Assembly: GCF_037414475.1 (NCBI RefSeq)
Contig: NZ_CP147913.1
Span: 744,001 to 808,000 of the forward strand
From: Myxococcus stipitatus
GTDB taxonomy: Bacteria > Myxococcota > Myxococcia > Myxococcales > Myxococcaceae
Direction: 5' to 3'
DNA length: 64,000 nucleotides
Shown here: piece by piece, positions 1 to 7,197 of the stretch
Layout of the letters: each line of letters begins with the position of its first letter
How positions within the stretch are numbered: the first letter of the stretch is position 1
Notes under the pieces: model-generated
The model's database searches: none
Seen by the model: only the letters and a program-made list of their open reading frames with translations
What the model was told of the DNA's origin: nothing
Position numbers and translations under genes: made by a program

Positions 1-190
1 TTCGTACAGGCCCGGCTGCCCTCACCGTGGAACTTTCGTTCCCTGTGACGGCGCCGTAACGCCCTCGTCACGACGTTTGCGCGCCGGGTCGTGCGCGCGC
101 GGTGCGCTGGGCCGTCCTCCACCCGACGTTGCCGTACCGGGCACCGCAGTTGCACAACGCCTCTGCCGGCTGCGACGGGGAGGCGGGGAC

Positions 191-1396
191 ATGGGCGGGA
201 GGTGGAGGATTCTTCGCGGGAAAAGGGGCCTCCTCGTCGCGGTCCTCATGAGCGGTCCGGTGCTGGCGGCGCCCCCGGACGCGGCGGAGGACTCACTCTC
301 CGGTGGCGTGGTGGATGGCGTCGAGCCCACGGAGAGCGGCCCGCCCGAAGGCGCCGAGCCCCTGGAGCCTTCCACGGCCCTGCCGGAGGACGCGGTGGCG
401 CAGGTGATGCCGCCGCCCTCCCCTCCCCCCGAGAAGAAGAAAAAGAAGCCGGGCGCGCAGCAGGAGGACTCGATGGGCGAGGACTCCACCGCGCTCGACG
501 ACACACCGGCGGACGAGGTGCAGCGCGTGCGCGTCTTCGGCCGCGTCTACGCGCGGGCCAGCGCGGATGAGCGGGAGAAGTTCCAGCGCTCGTTGAGCAT
601 TCCCTCGGCGCGCGTGGGCGTGGGCACCTCGCTGCCCAACCTGGAGGCGGAGGTGAGCGCGGACCTGGCGGACGCGTCGCTGCTCAAGGACGCCTTCGTG
701 CGGCTGGCGGATGACGCCAAGCGATTCAGGCTCTACGGCGGTCAGTTCAAGGCCCCCTTCCTCCAGCGCCGGCTGGAGGGCTCGTGGAGCCTGCCCATCC
801 AGGGACGCGGCCTGGTGGAGGACTATCTCGGAGACTACGAGCTGGGAGGGCGCCGGCTGGGGTTGATGGGCGAGGTGCGCCTCAAGAGCCTCTGGGACGT
901 GCGGGTCTCCGCGGGAGTCTTCCAAGGCTCCAAGGACGAGCTGGGTGTCCGCACGAAGGAGGACGCCGCGGGGCGCGTCAGCGTGCGTCCGCTCGGGAAG
1001 ATGCTCACCTTGGGGATGAGCACCTATGTCGCGGAGTTCATGGACCGGGCTCGCCGCCACGCGGTCGCGGTGGACGCCGAATGGAGAAGAGGCGCGTGGA
1101 GCGTGACGGGCGAGGTCGTCACGGGACGACTTCCCGTCGGGCCGTTCACCGCGCAGCTCCTGCTGGCGAGTTGGACGGTGCCGGTGACGGTGGAGTGGGC
1201 GCTCCAGCCCGTGGTGGGCGTGGAGGGCTTGCAGTTGAGGGGGGACGTGGAGGGTCGAGGCCATTCGCTGTTGGGAGGCCTCAACCTGCTGTTGGGCAGT
1301 CGGTTCCGGGGGCAGTTCCAGGTGGAGCGCGCGCTGCGGCCAGGAGATGAGACGCCGGGCCTCGAATACTCGCTGCAGCTGGCGACCCGTTTCTAG
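191..1396 (+). CDS. OprO/OprP-like outer-membrane porin, first gene of the VTC operon
   Basis: Predicted 401-residue outer-membrane protein. The start at 191 is chosen because it follows a GGGGAGG-type ribosome site and begins a typical signal peptide (basic start, then LLVAVLMSGPVLAA). Residues of about 30-110 form a Pro/Glu linker with a run of five lysines. From about residue 110 to the end the sequence has alternating beta-strand character, contains YGGQFKAPF (a signature shared with phosphate-selective porins O/P, where GQFK-PF recurs), and ends in an aromatic residue (RF), as expected for a barrel inserted by the BAM machinery. It stands 15 bases ahead of the VTC-domain gene and is probably co-transcribed with it. 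Inference: it passes phosphate, polyphosphate or another anion for the downstream genes. It could instead be a non-selective barrel; the family call is moderately sure, the substrate is not. Confidence 0.65.
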   Translation: MGGRWRILRGKRGLLVAVLMSGPVLAAPPDAAEDSLSGGVVDGVEPTESGPPEGAEPLEPSTALPEDAVAQVMPPPSPPPEKKKKKPGAQQEDSMGEDSTALDDTPADEVQRVRVFGRVYARASADEREKFQRSLSIPSARVGVGTSLPNLEAEVSADLADASLLKDAFVRLADDAKRFRLYGGQFKAPFLQRRLEGSWSLPIQGRGLVEDYLGDYELGGRRLGLMGEVRLKSLWDVRVSAGVFQGSKDELGVRTKEDAAGRVSVRPLGKMLTLGMSTYVAEFMDRARRHAVAVDAEWRRGAWSVTGEVVTGRLPVGPFTAQLLLASWTVPVTVEWALQPVVGVEGLQLRGDVEGRGHSLLGGLNLLLGSRFRGQFQVERALRPGDETPGLEYSLQLATRF

Positions 1397-1411
1397 TCAT
1401 GGAGACACGCC

Positions 1412-2125
1412 ATGCTCTCGTTCTCCGAGGGGGAAGTGACCAGGATCCGGCGTGAGTTCAAGCTGGTGCTGGAGGAGCAAGCGGCGCAGGTCTTGAGCCA
1501 GCGCCTGTCCGAGGACATGGGCGGGCTGACGCCCATGCCCACGCGCATCGTCTCCGTGTACTTCGACCGGCCCGGCTGTCCGCTGGCGGAGCGCGCGCTG
1601 CGCTCCCCCGACGACTGCCTCAAGGTGCGCACGAAGGAGTACGCGCCGGACGTGGGCGCCGAGGGTGTGGAGCGCGTGGTGCTGGAGGTGAAGCGCGAAA
1701 GCCACGGCCTCACCCAGAAGCGGCGCGTCTGGGTGCCGCGCGCGGAGCTGGGGCGCGTGCTGGGAGGAGGCACGCGGCTGTTGCCGCTCATCACCGGAGG
1801 GAGTCTGTCGCCGGTGCTGGCGGTGACGTATCAGCGCCACGTGTATCCATCGCCCCGCGGCTGGCGGGTGACGGTGGACCGGGACATCGGCTACCACCAG
1901 ATTGCCCCCGAGGTGGCGATGTCACAGTTTTCCCTGACAAGCGAGCGGCTGGGTCCGCCGCGGTCTCGCGAAGGGCGCGTGGTGGTGGAGGTGAAGCATC
2001 TGGGGCAGGAGCTTCCGGACTGGCTGGCGTCGCTCAATCCTGGAGGGGTGCCGACGTACAGCAAGTTCGCGGAAGGGATGGCGAGGGTTCATGCCTTCGT
2101 CGTGGATGGGGTCGCGAGGGGATAG
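1412..2125 (+). CDS. VTC-domain protein (polyphosphate polymerase-like)
   Basis: A 237-residue protein that is almost entirely one VTC domain, the tunnel-shaped catalytic fold of the Vtc4 polyphosphate polymerase. Diagnostic blocks in order are RREFK (13-17), SVYFDR (48-53), the basic strand KVRTKEY (71-77), LEVKRE (91-96), YQRHVY (140-145), VDRD (155-158), VVEVKH (191-196) and YSKFAEGM (216-223). These supply the Arg/Lys lining and the acidic metal ligands expected of an active enzyme. No membrane segment is present, so it should be cytosolic or docked on the DUF4956 membrane partner two genes downstream. A GGAGA site sits before the ATG. Known from the family: ATP-driven polyphosphate synthesis in yeast; bacterial members are often called polyphosphate polymerase domain proteins. 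Polymerase activity here is inferred from motif conservation only. Confidence 0.85.
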   Translation: MLSFSEGEVTRIRREFKLVLEEQAAQVLSQRLSEDMGGLTPMPTRIVSVYFDRPGCPLAERALRSPDDCLKVRTKEYAPDVGAEGVERVVLEVKRESHGLTQKRRVWVPRAELGRVLGGGTRLLPLITGGSLSPVLAVTYQRHVYPSPRGWRVTVDRDIGYHQIAPEVAMSQFSLTSERLGPPRSREGRVVVEVKHLGQELPDWLASLNPGGVPTYSKFAEGMARVHAFVVDGVARG

Positions 2126-2130
2126 ACACC

Positions 2131-3846
2131 GTGTTCATCGACTTCGAGGGGATTGATGGCAGCGGCAAGACGACGCTCTCCAACCTGCTGGCCGGAAGGC
2201 TGAAGAAGCTGGGCTACCGGGTGGCGCATGCACGCGAGGGCGGCGAGCTGCGCTCGTCCACGGCCCGGCGCGTGCGGGAGCTCACGCGCGACGCGCGGCT
2301 CCTGGAGATGTCGACGCGCGCCGAGTTCTTTCTCAACCTGGCCCGGGACGCCCAGCAGTTGGAGGAAGTGGTGGCGCCCGCGCTCTCCCGGGGTGAGGTG
2401 TGCATCACCGACCGTTACCTGTACTCGCAGCTCGCGCTGAGTGGCGGCGGCCGGGGCCTGCCGCTGGCGGAGCTGCGGCCCGCGTGTGAGCTGGCCTCGC
2501 AGGGGCTGTGGCCGGACCTGGTCATCCTCGTCGACGTGGACCCGGACCTGGCGCGCTTGCGCAAGCGGCTGGGCAAGGCCCAGTCGGACCGGAGCGCGGA
2601 GAGCGACAGCCGCAAGGGCCTGGCGGGCGCGGGGCTCGCCGTGCGCACGCGGGAGGCGTTCCTCGCCCTGGCGAGAGAAGACCCCCGGCGCTGGCTCATC
2701 CTCGAGAACAACGACGTGCCGCTGCGCGTGCTGGAGCAGCGCCTGGTCGACGCCGTGGTCGCGCGGCTGGAAGGGCGCGACACGCCCGTGCAACGCATCG
2801 TCCCCTCGCCCATCGCCCCGCCTCCTCCAGGGCCGGTGCGAGTGGAGCAAGTGGAGGAGCACTTCTTCCAGACGTTGGATGCAGTGGAGCTGCGCGAGCC
2901 GGCGCTGGCGCTGTGGCTACTGGATGGCCTGCCCGGGCTCGCCGCGCACCAGCGCCGGTTGGACTTCGTGGAGCGCTTCCCCTCCCTCACGGCGCGCGGG
3001 CTCCAGGGGCTGGATGACGATGCCGCGTGGTCGCTGCGCGAGGTGCTGGCCCCGTTGGCGCCCCTCCAGGTGGCCAGCGGGCTGACAGGCTTGATGAGTC
3101 CCCGCGCGGCGATGATGCGCGAGCGGCTGTATGTCCATGCGCCCGCAGAAGTCCTCCAAGGCCTCAAGGCAGACGACTCGCCCCAGGCCTGGGCGCTGCG
3201 CGAGCGCGGCATGAGAGATGGGCGGCTGGCGGCGGTGCTGCTCGGCCTCGCGGGGATGGACAGCGAGGAGTCCTGGGTGGTGCGGGAGGCGGGCATGTCT
3301 CGCGGACTCCACGCAGAGGTCGCGCGCAGCCTGGGAGGACTGTCCGACGCGAGGGCCGAGGCGCTGCGCGAGGTGCTCCTGCCCCACGACAGGCTGGCGG
3401 TGCTGCGCGGGACACTCGGGTTGGACACCCCCGTGGCGCGCGGGCTGCGCGAGGCCTTGGCGGACAAGGCGCTGAAGCTGGTGCTGCGCTCGCTGACGGG
3501 GCTCTCGTCACGGGAGTCCTGGGCCCTGCGCGAGCGCTCCGCGCACAAGACGAAGGAGGCCTTGGACTCGGTGGACGGCATGAGCGACCCACGCGCGTGG
3601 AAGCTGCGGGTGGCGCACGCGAACCGCTGGCCCGCCACCGTGCTCTCCTCGCTCAGGGGGTTGCCGCTGGAGCCCGAGACGCGCCTGTTGATGGAGCGCA
3701 TCCTGGAGACTCATGCCACTCGGTTGCCGGTGCTGCGCAACGCGTACTCGGTCATCGCCACGGCGGCGACGCTCGACGCGCGGGGGTGGGTCTCCCGTCC
3801 GGGCCGCCCGGCCGTGGAGCCTCCGTCCCAGCAGATGGAAGTCTGA
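2131..3846 (+). CDS. Thymidylate-kinase-like P-loop kinase fused to about ten helical repeats
   Basis: A 571-residue two-part protein with a GTG start 5 bases after the VTC gene. Residues 1-215 are a thymidylate-kinase-like domain: FEGIDGSGKTT (5-15) is the P-loop, TDRYLYS (93-99) the DR-Y substrate motif, followed by GGGRG, and a lid-like basic stretch lies at about 144-163. After a proline-rich linker (about 224-236), residues 265-560 hold about ten units of 27-30 residues with the pattern G-L/M-S-x-x-x-A-W-x-L-R-E ... V-L-x-x-L, a HEAT/ARM-like helical solenoid. A housekeeping Tmk is about 210 residues and has no such tail. Known: PPK2 polyphosphate:nucleotide kinases share the thymidylate-kinase fold. 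Inference: the kinase works with the polyphosphate made by the neighbour, and the repeats act as a scaffold. A plain dTMP kinase with an extra domain is the alternative. Confidence 0.75.
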   Translation: MFIDFEGIDGSGKTTLSNLLAGRLKKLGYRVAHAREGGELRSSTARRVRELTRDARLLEMSTRAEFFLNLARDAQQLEEVVAPALSRGEVCITDRYLYSQLALSGGGRGLPLAELRPACELASQGLWPDLVILVDVDPDLARLRKRLGKAQSDRSAESDSRKGLAGAGLAVRTREAFLALAREDPRRWLILENNDVPLRVLEQRLVDAVVARLEGRDTPVQRIVPSPIAPPPPGPVRVEQVEEHFFQTLDAVELREPALALWLLDGLPGLAAHQRRLDFVERFPSLTARGLQGLDDDAAWSLREVLAPLAPLQVASGLTGLMSPRAAMMRERLYVHAPAEVLQGLKADDSPQAWALRERGMRDGRLAAVLLGLAGMDSEESWVVREAGMSRGLHAEVARSLGGLSDARAEALREVLLPHDRLAVLRGTLGLDTPVARGLREALADKALKLVLRSLTGLSSRESWALRERSAHKTKEALDSVDGMSDPRAWKLRVAHANRWPATVLSSLRGLPLEPETRLLMERILETHATRLPVLRNAYSVIATAATLDARGWVSRPGRPAVEPPSQQMEV

Positions 3847-3858
3847 GGGGACGTGCCC

Positions 3859-4566
3859 ATGGACCTCTCGCTTCCTTCCTTCTTCGAAGGCGCCAAGGCG
3901 GAGATGAACGCCTTGTCCATCACCGTGATGCTGCCGCGCATGCTCGCGGCGGCGTTCATCGGCGCGCTCCTGTCGCTGCGGCCCTGGCGGGTGCTCCTGC
4001 GCAGGCCCCTGCCGAAGTCGGACATGGTTCAGGCGCAGGTGCTGCTGTGCGCCGCGGCGGCGGTCATCACCGCCGTCATCGGCGACAGCGTGGCCAAGGC
4101 CTTTGGCCTGGTGGGCCTGGGCGGCTTCGTGCGCTTCCGCTCGGGACTGAAGGACCCTCGCGACGCGGCCATCCTCTTCTTGATGATTGGCCTGGGCATG
4201 GCGTGTGGCCATGGCAGCCTGGGGCTCGCGAGCGTGGGCACCGTCTTCGTGGCGGCGCTGCTGTTCGTGCTGGACCTGTTCAACCGCGGAGAGGTGCCCG
4301 GCACACTCAAGCAGCGGCTGCTCGTCTCCGCGCAGGCCGATGACCTGGTGACCGCGGAGGCCACGCTGAGGAGCGCGCTGGGTGAGCGCAACGTGTTGGT
4401 GAAGAGCTGCGCGCTCGACTTCGACGGGCGGCGGCTGGAGCTGGAGGTGGAGGAGCCTGTGCCCGGCTCTTTGACCGCGGCATTGGGACGTACGGAGGGA
4501 ATGCCCCTGCGGGGGCTGCGGTGGACGGCGGTGAGCCCCAAGGGGGGACGGGAGGAGCTGACATGA
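3859..4566 (+). CDS. DUF4956 membrane protein of the VTC operon
   Basis: A 235-residue membrane protein of the DUF4956 family. Hydrophobic segments lie at about residues 22-40, 58-75, 103-117 and 121-140, and the family block FVRFRSGLKDPRDAAILFLM (90-109) sits between the second and third, followed by GLGMACG. The C-terminal 90 residues form a soluble, ferredoxin-like-looking domain. The ATG at 3859 is preferred to a GTG at 3853 because GAGGGG lies 8 bases before it. Known: DUF4956 genes commonly neighbour VTC-domain genes in bacteria, often together with a CotH-type kinase-like protein. Here the third partner is the kinase-repeat fusion instead. Probable role: the membrane component or channel of the VTC system. 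The last codons overlap the next gene by four bases (ATGA), so translation is probably coupled. Confidence 0.85.
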   Translation: MDLSLPSFFEGAKAEMNALSITVMLPRMLAAAFIGALLSLRPWRVLLRRPLPKSDMVQAQVLLCAAAAVITAVIGDSVAKAFGLVGLGGFVRFRSGLKDPRDAAILFLMIGLGMACGHGSLGLASVGTVFVAALLFVLDLFNRGEVPGTLKQRLLVSAQADDLVTAEATLRSALGERNVLVKSCALDFDGRRLELEVEEPVPGSLTAALGRTEGMPLRGLRWTAVSPKGGREELT

Positions 4567-5330
4567 AGCGCTGGTGGATGGCCGCGCTCGCGGCCGGTGG
4601 GTTGCTCGTGGGTTGTGGCGGCGGCGAGAACCTGCCACGTGGCGATGGAATGGGGCCGAGGACGCCCGATGGCGACGTGGGACTCCCCGGGGAGCCGCAA
4701 GCTCCCGACACCGCCACGTCCCTGTGGCCGCTGACGGAGGGCTCCGTCTGGGTCTACGACATCCAGGACCCCGTGCATGGCCGCTTCCAGAAACACGTGA
4801 CGGTGGATGGGCCGCGCGATGTGCCGGGGGCTCCGGCGGGCACGACAGGCGTGCTCGTGCGCAGCCGGCAGGACCGCGTCGCGACGGGAGTGCTCTACGA
4901 GGAGTACTCGTGGCAGGCCGAGCAGCCCAACGGCCTGGTGGTGCGGCTGCGCGAGGAGGACCATCGGGATGGGGCGCTGGTGCGCACCACCACCTGGTCT
5001 CCCGCCACGGTGAAGTCGCTGGCGCGCGCGCCCAGCGCCCTGCCCTGGTCCTACACCAACGCGGTGAAGGAGCTCACCGTGCTGGGCGATGGCAGCCAGG
5101 AGGACGGCGACCCGACGTACGCGTGGCGCGTGGTGGAGATGGGGGTGACGGTGCAGACGCGGGCCGGCACCTTCACCAACGCCGTGAAGGTGCGGCGCGA
5201 GAAGCTCAACGACGCGGGTGAAGTGAAAGAGGGCAAGGAGCGCACGTACTGGTTGGTGCCCGGCATCGGCAAGGTGCGCGAGGAGGGAGAGCGCACCGAG
5301 GACCTCGCGTCCTACGACGTGAAGAAGTAG
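4563..5330 (+). CDS. Lipoprotein closing the VTC operon
   Basis: A 255-residue lipoprotein. The ATG at 4563 overlaps the stop of the DUF4956 gene and starts a signal peptide ending in the lipobox LLVGC, with the modified cysteine at residue 18. The mature N-terminus is Gly/Asp/Pro-rich, then a compact domain begins with LWPLTEGSVWVYD, a phrase found in many secreted bacterial proteins of unknown function (W-P-L-x-x-G-x-x-W-x-Y). The remainder is rich in beta-strand and in charged residues (RVRREK, GIGKVREEGER). No catalytic motif is seen. Position as the last gene of a tightly spaced operon suggests a periplasmic or outer-membrane-anchored accessory to the porin/VTC system. Function unknown. 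Confidence 0.8.
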   Translation: MKRWWMAALAAGGLLVGCGGGENLPRGDGMGPRTPDGDVGLPGEPQAPDTATSLWPLTEGSVWVYDIQDPVHGRFQKHVTVDGPRDVPGAPAGTTGVLVRSRQDRVATGVLYEEYSWQAEQPNGLVVRLREEDHRDGALVRTTTWSPATVKSLARAPSALPWSYTNAVKELTVLGDGSQEDGDPTYAWRVVEMGVTVQTRAGTFTNAVKVRREKLNDAGEVKEGKERTYWLVPGIGKVREEGERTEDLASYDVKK

Positions 5331-5460: not shown

Positions 5461-7197
5461 ATGCATCGGAAGACCCGCTTCACCCTCATGGCCGTGGCCC
5501 TGACGCTCGTGTCGGGCATGGCCTCCGCGGGCGTTCTCGCTCGTGACCCCTACCTCCAGAAGGTTGGACCGGACACTGCCCTGGTGGCGTTCCGGCTGGC
5601 GTCCAGTTGCTCGCCCGAGGTGCGTTACGGCACGGGCGCCGTGAGCGAGGTTGCTCGCTCGGAGACCACAGGCCGCAATCACGCGGTGGTGCTGACGGGC
5701 CTGAAGCCCGGCACCGAGTACACGTATGAAGTGAGTGCCTGCGGCACCACGACACCCCCCAAACGATTCACCACCGCCCCCGAGCCGGGCACCCGGCGCG
5801 TGCACTTCGCCGCCATGGGAGACTTCGGCACGGGAGGCTCGGACCAGCGCAAGGTCGTCGCGCGCATGCTCACGAACAAGCCAGAGCTGTTCGTGGCGCT
5901 CGGTGACAACGCCTACCCCGACGGCACCGAGGCCGATTTCCAGAACAACCTCTTCACGCCCATGGCCCCCCTGCTCGCGGAGGTGCCCATGTTCGCCACG
6001 CCCGGCAATCACGAATACGTGACGAACGAGGGAGAGCCGTACCTCAACAACCTCTTCATGCCCACCAACAACCCGGCGGGCTCCGAGCGCTACTTCTCCT
6101 TCGACTGGGGACACGTGCACTTCGTGTCCATCGACTCCAACTGCGCGCTCGGCCTGTCGGCGCCGAACCGCTGCACGCTGGCGGCCCAGAAGGCGTGGCT
6201 GGAGACGGACCTGGCCACGACGAAGCAGCCCTGGAAGGTCGTCTTCTTCCACCACCCGGCCTGGTCCAGCGGCGAGCACGGCTCGCAGCTCACCATGCGC
6301 CGCCAGTTCGCGCCGCTCCTCGAGAAGTACGGCGTGGACCTGGTGCTCACGGGGCACGACCACAACTACGAGCGCAGCAAGCCCATGAAGGGTGATGGCA
6401 TCGCCTCGTCGGGTGGCATCCCGTACCTCGTCGTGGGCGGTGGAGGCGCGGCCCTGCGGCCGTTCGCCGGAGGCCAGCCCGACTGGAGCGTCATCCGCGA
6501 CAGCAAGGCCTACGGCTACCTGGACGTGGAGGTCGTCGAGGGCGTGCTCAACGCGAAGCTCGTCACCGTCGACAACAAGGTGCTCGACAGCTTCACGCTG
6601 CGCAAGGACCTGCCCCCCGTGGAGCAGCCGCCTCCGGCCGCCGCGCTGACCATCAACGTGGAGGGCCAGCGCGGTGTCGCCCCGCACAAGGTCCTCGTCC
6701 GCGCGACGACGTCCTCGCCGGACGTCCCGGTGCGCTGGGACTTCGGTGACGGCGGCACGGCCGAGGGACACACCGCGGAGCACGTCTACACCAAAGCCGG
6801 TCAATTCACCGTGACGGCGACCGCCACCTTCGGCGCCGTGACGCGCACGGCGACGGCCGTCGTCACCGTCAGCGAGGCCCCAGGTGGAACCCCGGATGGG
6901 GGCACCTCGCCTGGAACGGACGGAGGCACCTCGCCTGGAACGGACGGGGGCACCTCGCCTGGAACGGATGGAGGCACCTCGCCTGGGGCGGACGCGGGCA
7001 CCTCGCCCGGGACGGACGCGGGCACCGGCACGCAGCCTGGGACGGACAACCCCACCCCGCCTCCCGCCATCGCCGACAAGGACGAAGGTTCCGGAGGCGG
7101 CGGATGCTCCGCCACCTCCACCGCCACGCTCCTCCCAGCGGGCGGACTGCTGTTGTCACGGCTCCTGAGACGGCGCCGCGCGAGCCGACAGGCCTGA
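5461..7197 (+). CDS. Secreted purple-acid-phosphatase-like enzyme with PKD domain and MYXO-CTERM-like tail
   Basis: A 578-residue exported metallophosphoesterase with a GGGAGGAGG site before the ATG. After a signal peptide (1-23) comes an N-terminal fibronectin-like domain (about 28-105) typical of purple acid phosphatases, then the dinuclear-metal motifs GDFG (120-123), GDNAY (148-152), GNHE (182-185), FFHHP and GHDHNYER in the right order. Residues of about 395-470 form a PKD domain (VRWDFGDGG ... HVYTKAGQFTVT). A Thr/Ser/Pro/Gly linker of repeated DGGTSPGT units follows. The end, GSGGGGCS plus a hydrophobic stretch plus RLLRRRR, matches the MYXO-CTERM type of surface-sorting tail. Likely role: release of phosphate from organic esters at the cell surface. 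It follows the VTC operon by 130 bases, reinforcing the phosphate theme, but may have its own promoter. Confidence 0.88.
   Translation: MHRKTRFTLMAVALTLVSGMASAGVLARDPYLQKVGPDTALVAFRLASSCSPEVRYGTGAVSEVARSETTGRNHAVVLTGLKPGTEYTYEVSACGTTTPPKRFTTAPEPGTRRVHFAAMGDFGTGGSDQRKVVARMLTNKPELFVALGDNAYPDGTEADFQNNLFTPMAPLLAEVPMFATPGNHEYVTNEGEPYLNNLFMPTNNPAGSERYFSFDWGHVHFVSIDSNCALGLSAPNRCTLAAQKAWLETDLATTKQPWKVVFFHHPAWSSGEHGSQLTMRRQFAPLLEKYGVDLVLTGHDHNYERSKPMKGDGIASSGGIPYLVVGGGGAALRPFAGGQPDWSVIRDSKAYGYLDVEVVEGVLNAKLVTVDNKVLDSFTLRKDLPPVEQPPPAAALTINVEGQRGVAPHKVLVRATTSSPDVPVRWDFGDGGTAEGHTAEHVYTKAGQFTVTATATFGAVTRTATAVVTVSEAPGGTPDGGTSPGTDGGTSPGTDGGTSPGTDGGTSPGADAGTSPGTDAGTGTQPGTDNPTPPPAIADKDEGSGGGGCSATSTATLLPAGGLLLSRLLRRRRASRQA
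6913..7026 (+). repeat. 24-bp tandem repeat encoding the Gly/Thr/Ser/Pro linker
   Basis: About 4.75 direct copies of a 24-bp unit (first unit 6913-6936, then 6937, 6961, 6985 and a partial from 7009) encode GTDGGTSP-type repeats between the PKD domain and the sorting tail of the phosphatase. Copies differ by a few silent or Gly/Ala changes. Copy number of such units is expected to vary between strains by slippage. Confidence 0.9.

Follow-up and report, generated by a model that had tools for sequence, protein, structure and literature searches.

In yeast, polyphosphate (polyP) is made by the VTC complex, in which Vtc4 is joined to a transmembrane (TM) channel of Vtc1/2/3 and synthesis is coupled to membrane transit (PMC9911596). 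Bacterial polyP synthesis is ascribed to PPK1 and PPK2, and VTC to eukaryotes (PMC10657179, PMC13318637, PMC7332688). In bacteria, genes for CotH, a polyP polymerase (PPP), DUF4956 and DUF4832 were described beside pel clusters (PMC7112168), and a locus with VTC-domain and CotH genes was described in Clostridium perfringens (PMC2879425). The present analysis concerns a five-gene operon encoding a porin, a VTC-domain protein, a kinase fused to an alpha-solenoid (kinase-solenoid), a DUF4956 membrane protein and a lipoprotein. It lies in a stretch of 64,000 nucleotides of Myxococcus stipitatus, a predatory soil bacterium of the Myxococcus group of myxobacteria (the window; positions 744001-808000 of the 10.31 Mb single-contig genome, NZ_CP147913.1).

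Like the yeast complex, the operon combines a VTC domain of the triphosphate tunnel metalloenzyme (TTM) fold, with invariant active-site positions, and a membrane partner. It differs in that the bacterial VTC protein carries no TM segment and, with 237 amino acids, leaves no room for an SPX domain; its neighbour is DUF4956 instead of a VTC1-type TM domain, and porin, lipoprotein and kinase-solenoid are added. The Gram-positive pel-cluster set CotH-PPP(VTC)-DUF4956-DUF4832 (PMC7112168) has VTC and DUF4956 in common with the myxobacterial loci, and CotH with the type II and Anaeromyxobacter loci described below. In contrast to that set, the myxobacterial loci add porin, kinase-solenoid and lipoprotein, the window locus is without CotH, and no pel genes were found among the locus neighbours scanned with Pfam, which were part of all neighbours.

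A preliminary description of the operon, made from the sequence alone, knew of no account of this combination. This holds for the porin and kinase parts, as no mention of a kinase-porin combination was found in the open-access literature as far as it was available, but not for CotH, polyP polymerase and DUF4956 (PMC7112168). Added to that description here are a conserved sigma54-type promoter motif, a weak resemblance of DUF4956 to MgtC, four distant loci with a Na/Pi cotransporter, VTC-DUF4956-HlyD/OEP loci, neighbours encoding phosphate transport, CotH and PPDK_N proteins, and a secreted phosphatase next door.

A conserved five-gene operon

Direct reading confirmed five plus-strand genes with successive gaps of 15, 5 and 12 bases followed by a 4-base overlap, as first described. 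They encode a probable OprO/OprP-like outer-membrane porin with a signal-peptide-like N-terminus (191..1396, 401 amino acids), a soluble VTC-domain protein with the fold of Vtc4-type polyP polymerases (1412..2125, 237 amino acids), the kinase-solenoid (2131..3846, 571 amino acids, start codon GTG), the DUF4956 inner-membrane protein (3859..4566; start taken as ATG at 3859, with a GTG at 3853) and a weakly DUF3108-like lipoprotein (4563..5330, 255 amino acids, lipobox LVGC judged by eye). Pfam E-values were 5e-16 for VTC, 1e-24 for Thymidylate_kin and 5e-11 for DUF4956. The lipoprotein matched DUF3108_like at E 0.005, under the family cut-off.

The operon is a real and strongly conserved module. 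The LID motif of the kinase was used to scan 84,980 species genomes and gave 42 matching stretches, 38 of which were confirmed as loci and four left unconfirmed and uncounted; the scan used a single 10-residue pattern, so that remoter kin could escape it. Although picked by the kinase motif alone, 26 of the 38 loci had the exact five-gene order, and three more had four genes in order; two of these three, L086 and L098, are on short contigs whose end lies a little way past DUF4956. VTC was present in 36, DUF4956 in 34, a porin in 35, the lipoprotein in 30, the phosphatase in 27, CotH in 5 and a Na/Pi cotransporter in 4 loci. The joint retention of the five genes in related genomes, left to a neighbourhood search by the preliminary description, is thus borne out. 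All 38 loci carried myxobacterial names except two records, labelled Comamonas and Proteobacteria. The record Comamonas sp. KCTC 72670 (L088) bears a myxobacterial operon and is probably mislabelled: it seems to be identical with G057, from the genus of the window.

Co-occurrence was also counted in an order sample (117 genomes) and a phylum sample (195 genomes), which overlap with the 38 kinase-picked loci and were not summed with them. In the order sample, 66 genomes had DUF4956 and 59 had VTC; the kinase protein gave matches in 97, and the weaker of these matches covered the kinase domain only, like ordinary thymidylate kinases (Tmks). In the phylum sample, 94 genomes had VTC, 110 had DUF4956 and 75 had the solenoid domain. 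DUF4956 was present in 94/94 genomes with a Pfam VTC match versus 16/101 others; Fisher tests on co-occurrence were extreme, but the sampled genomes are related and the p-values are not independent. A Pfam VTC match was found in 70/75 solenoid genomes. Among the rest, the kinase has a diverged VTC gene next to it in G012, G035 and G057 (L059, L060 and L042), the contig of G059 starts inside the kinase gene, and G002 has none nearby. A chance cluster was rejected on the 36/38 count for VTC and the 94/94 count for DUF4956.

Properties of the encoded proteins

The VTC protein matched positions 2-235 of the 235 of the Pfam profile (PF09359) with 59.3 bits (cut-off 23). Among the Vtc4 residues, K281, K294, R361, K428, S457 and K458 are taken here to belong to the active site. 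The positions aligned to these six and to R264 and E426 were invariant in 26/26 VTC proteins, with Vtc4 numbering assuming an offset of 3 in 5iiq. In yeast, R264, R266 and E426 were changed to inactivate the enzyme (PMC9911596). The pattern would fit polyP polymerase activity, which the protein may possess. No hydrophobic segment was found on the window protein; the TM function may be supplied by DUF4956.

The DUF4956 protein of the window scored 43 bits against its family (PF16316, cut-off 30.6), and 27/27 aligned members matched at E 0.01. The MgtC profile (PF02308) matched 24/27 members at E 0.01 (best 9.7e-7), the window member reaching 19.7 bits, below the cut-off of 31.4. The predicted structure consists of helices followed by a ferredoxin-like domain, which matched the C-terminal domains of MgtC (7qa5, 2lqj) at Z 9.2, in a tie with other folds. 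In Foldseek, no structure was hit at E 0.001. A kinship with MgtC/SapB is thus a lead from two weak but concordant lines, profile and model; it differs from an assignment in that the proteins belong to DUF4956 proper and the window member stays under the MgtC cut-off.

Relatives carried the porin assignment. Porin_O_P (PF07396) was matched by 13 of 23 aligned porins, the window porin among the 23 (best E 1.9e-9); the window porin itself gave no Pfam match at E 0.1, so that the OprO/P likeness first proposed for it is supported through its kin only. When the porin alignment was searched against PDB sequences, only weak matches to a ribosomal protein were returned (E 0.085 and worse).

The kinase-solenoid is composed of a Tmk-family P-loop kinase (about residues 1-210) and an alpha-solenoid (about residues 240-545). 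With dTMP kinase it shares the P-loop, the DR motif and the overall family, P-loop Lys and DR motif being kept in 30/30 fused kinases. It differs in the fused solenoid, in the distinct LID pattern SRKGL-G-GL (SRKGL in nearly all fused kinases) and in the loss of a Tyr-Gln pair after the DR motif, which we take to contact dTMP. This pair was kept in 21/21 ordinary Tmks (one from the own genome, 20 picked from other genomes) and lost in 30/30 fused kinases, where its place is held by Leu (28), His (1) or Thr (1), followed by Ser, Ala or Thr. Fused and ordinary kinases formed separate clades (support 100/99), with long branches flagged by the program, including L071. The database name dTMP kinase, backed by a score of 93.3 versus the TIGR00041 cut-off of 83.25, is probably wrong for the substrate of this kinase.

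The preliminary description had named as refuting the case that the operon kinase is simply the main Tmk of the cell. This was rejected, as a separate Tmk encoded at 9.04 Mb scored better (146.6 vs 90.5 bits). PPK2 polyP:nucleotide kinases have a P-loop ancestry in common with thymidylate kinases (PMC8776046). The operon kinase differs from them by its Tmk-type motifs and by giving no match to the PPK2 profile (PF03976) at E 0.1; with two PPK2 genes elsewhere in the genome, it was rejected as a PPK2.

The predicted fold of the C-terminal 306 residues comprises 11 helical hairpins, each about 27 residues long, with a predicted local distance difference test score (pLDDT) of 96. The scaffolding role first suggested for this protein gains from the high-confidence solenoid model as a possibility only. 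Foldseek gave no hit for the solenoid at E 0.001. In VIA-align, Rpn1/Rpn2 chains ranked first (Z up to 14.8, root mean square deviation 4.9, 296 aligned residues; next group about 11), a value close to the best Z of 14 that this tool typically reaches with mostly helical models; the likeness to these PC-repeat/HEAT-type proteins is only a lead.

Two further observations concern the kinases. The relative L071 (G002), a kinase-solenoid gene of 37% identity, is flanked by SIR2, MetK, methyltransferase-like and TldD genes. In 19 of the 21 ordinary Tmks (L002, L159-L178) the P-loop Lys is replaced by Thr (GAGTTT or GSGTTT), and Tmks with this Thr also occur in genomes that lack a kinase-solenoid match (G116, G084, G044, G022).

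Locus variants and proposed function

The order found in the window (porin-VTC-kinase-DUF4956-lipoprotein) was defined as type I. In Anaeromyxobacter, type I is accompanied by CotH on the opposite strand, the secreted phosphatase is a divergent neighbour of the operon, and a full-length phosphatase was called beside it in 4/5 loci. Type II has the order CotH-VTC-porin-kinase-DUF4956 with a kinase about 40% identical; the set is split between two places in G097 and G148. PhoU_div follows downstream in several type II loci, and a PHO4/PiT gene adjoins in L149. When one member per cluster was scanned, an OmpR-type response regulator was seen near L142, L145, L149 and L150, accompanied by a neighbouring histidine kinase in all of these but L149.

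A distant type (L114, L116-L118) combines kinase, VTC and a Na/Pi cotransporter. Lipoprotein relatives stand inside the operons of L114 and L116. DUF4956 was not found in these four loci with our own profile, nor with Pfam on 20 further neighbours, the larger neighbours being left out. L117 and L118 carry PhoU_div/DUF47, an OmpR-type response regulator and arsenic genes, and this neighbourhood perhaps serves phosphate/arsenate discrimination. The arsenic genes encode ArsD and ArsA in both loci, ArsR in L117 and a protein of the SBF family in L118.

Type III consists of VTC-DUF4956-HlyD without the kinase-solenoid. OEP was the next gene in six of seven loci, the seventh being cut by the contig end, and this arrangement suggests export; in L151, DUF4956-HlyD-OEP stands at the beginning of a contig. 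The deeper loci L122 and L123 have VTC-DUF4956 with porin, CotH and PPDK_N. In a set of 72 VTC loci, partly chosen by DUF4956, 63 had a DUF4956 gene on the strand of VTC and no more than 4 kb away by our own profile, and the Pfam profile added L134 and L135. As gene calling was adjusted to GC-rich sequence, L124, L129, L133-L135 and L155 were scanned in six frames instead.

A phosphate or polyP theme of the operon is likely. For the specific mechanism, a phosphate/polyP envelope module with VTC synthesis and DUF4956 handling at the inner membrane, the chances are about even. The soluble VTC protein would polymerise phosphate from ATP at the cytosolic face. DUF4956 would be its inner-membrane partner and most likely pass or gate the nascent chain, comparable to the TM channel of yeast VTC, and the OprO/OprP-type porin and the lipoprotein would extend the path across the periplasm and the outer membrane. 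The Tmk-derived protein may act in the cytosol as a nucleotide kinase whose acceptor site is altered, docked by its solenoid to VTC/DUF4956 and tuning the supply of nucleotide or phosphate there. The envelope-spanning polyP system of the preliminary description has in part gained ground, from the co-conservation, the intact VTC active-site positions, the Porin_O_P relatives and the Na/Pi, PiT/DUF47 and HlyD/OEP partners. If this holds true, a bacterial VTC with intact active-site positions, an invariable membrane partner and outer-membrane parts would represent a second polyP route and a possible polyP export path. The DUF4956 family, so far unassigned, becomes testable as the membrane partner of VTC.

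Several points weigh against this mechanism. The Na/Pi, PiT and phosphatase neighbours fit import equally as export. The DUF4956 model is of moderate quality (pLDDT 74), too weak to establish a pore, and its matches to MgtC folds are level with those to ribosomal S6 and many unrelated ferredoxin-like folds. The position of Vtc4 R266 is Lys in 17 of the 26 VTC proteins, including that of the window, Arg in 2 and Tyr in 7. In the phylum sample, 24/94 VTC genomes are without the kinase-solenoid, which is therefore dispensable for VTC-DUF4956 function in general, and no VTC or DUF4956 was found near the kinase relative L071. The genome has PPK1 and two PPK2, so that its polyP does not depend on VTC alone. 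In the open-access literature, as far as available, a study of the activity or function of a bacterial VTC was not found.

The Na/Pi cotransporter, PHO4/DUF47 and metallophosphatase neighbours, together with the weak MgtC likeness of DUF4956, also agree with phosphate capture and storage, in which phosphatase and porin would import phosphate, VTC would store it as cytosolic polyP, and DUF4956 would be an MgtC-like regulator without any export. As HlyD directly after VTC-DUF4956, mostly with OEP, and the CotH and PPDK_N lipoproteins in the loci are left unexplained by it, this alternative appears rather unlikely.

In 21 of the 72 VTC loci, CotH was encoded on the strand of VTC and no more than 4 kb from it; it is not in the operon of the window, whose genome has three CotH genes, all off the operon and the nearest about 182 kb away. 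Its frequency near VTC, and the pel association of the Gram-positive set (PMC7112168), would agree with a surface-modification system as suggested for that set, in which VTC is a TTM-fold enzyme with another task, either a triphosphatase or the maker of a donor for surface phosphorylation or polysaccharide modification by CotH. This is unlikely in view of the eight invariant Vtc4 active-site positions, the recurring phosphate transporters and the distance of the nearest CotH gene in the window's genome.

Proteins with PPDK_N (the ATP-binding domain of pyruvate phosphate dikinase), of about 620-700 amino acids, recur in VTC loci (L063, L072, L073, L116, L123, L139, L140, L146, L152, L157). A recognisable lipobox was present in 15/24 CotH and 8/9 PPDK_N proteins of the loci tested, and was judged by eye in the own-genome CotH in L078. 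From these lipoboxes it could be imagined, as a speculative and improbable extension, that exported polyP is the energy currency of extracytoplasmic kinases: VTC would make it, DUF4956 with the porin or HlyD/OEP would export it, and lipid-anchored CotH and PPDK_N would use it to phosphorylate surface targets where ATP is scarce, the kinase-solenoid linking exported polyP to the nucleotide pool. The window operon, with neither CotH nor PPDK_N, would then have to serve CotH proteins encoded elsewhere in the genome. The reading of the kinase as a second dTMP kinase of the ordinary kind, in a cluster without joint function, is extremely improbable, since, in spite of its score over the TIGR00041 cut-off, all fused kinases lack the Tyr-Gln pair kept by ordinary Tmks and form a separate clade, and VTC accompanies nearly all kinase loci.

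Predicted promoter region and neighbouring genes

Upstream of the porin gene, GGCACCGCAGTTGCA (140..154, plus strand) matches a -24/-12 promoter motif with GG-N10-GC spacing, a geometry which we assign to sigma54 promoters, and is a predicted promoter. One match was found in the window versus 0.14 expected. Among the Myxococcaceae type I loci, all 19 in which a porin was called (L036-L054) had the motif, as did L056, L058 and L061. The palindrome GGAACTTTCGTTCC (29..42, plus strand), a candidate site for an enhancer-binding protein, is separated from the -24 element by 97 bases; it has a single exact copy in the window and one more match with 2 mismatches. A GGAA-N6-TTCC palindrome was found upstream of 16 of the 19 Myxococcaceae type I porins scanned and also at L056, L058 and L061, with distances to the promoter of about 70-150 bp (start to start) in loci carrying both.

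In the lineage of the window, a sigma54 promoter probably drives the operon, with a dedicated enhancer-binding protein as its activator. The scan for the sigma54 motif was negative before eight type II CotH starts, before the called porins of L057 and L062, and before the VTC genes of L055, L059 and L060, where the porin was uncalled. It was also negative before the type III VTC genes of L072, L073 and L075 (20 bases only in L075); some of the starts in this negative set may be mis-called. The combined pattern of palindrome and promoter occurred once in the genome (10.3 Mb), and its reversed control had no match; no second site was present, and no regulon could be drawn.

The next gene downstream of the operon, at a distance of 130 bp, encodes a secreted, purple-acid-phosphatase-like metallophosphoesterase with a PKD domain and MYXO-CTERM (5461..7197, plus strand). 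Upstream of most type I operons examined, a Ser/Thr protein kinase gene is located on the opposite strand (L036:11688-13967 and kin); for the operon analysed here, it lies just beyond the window edge.

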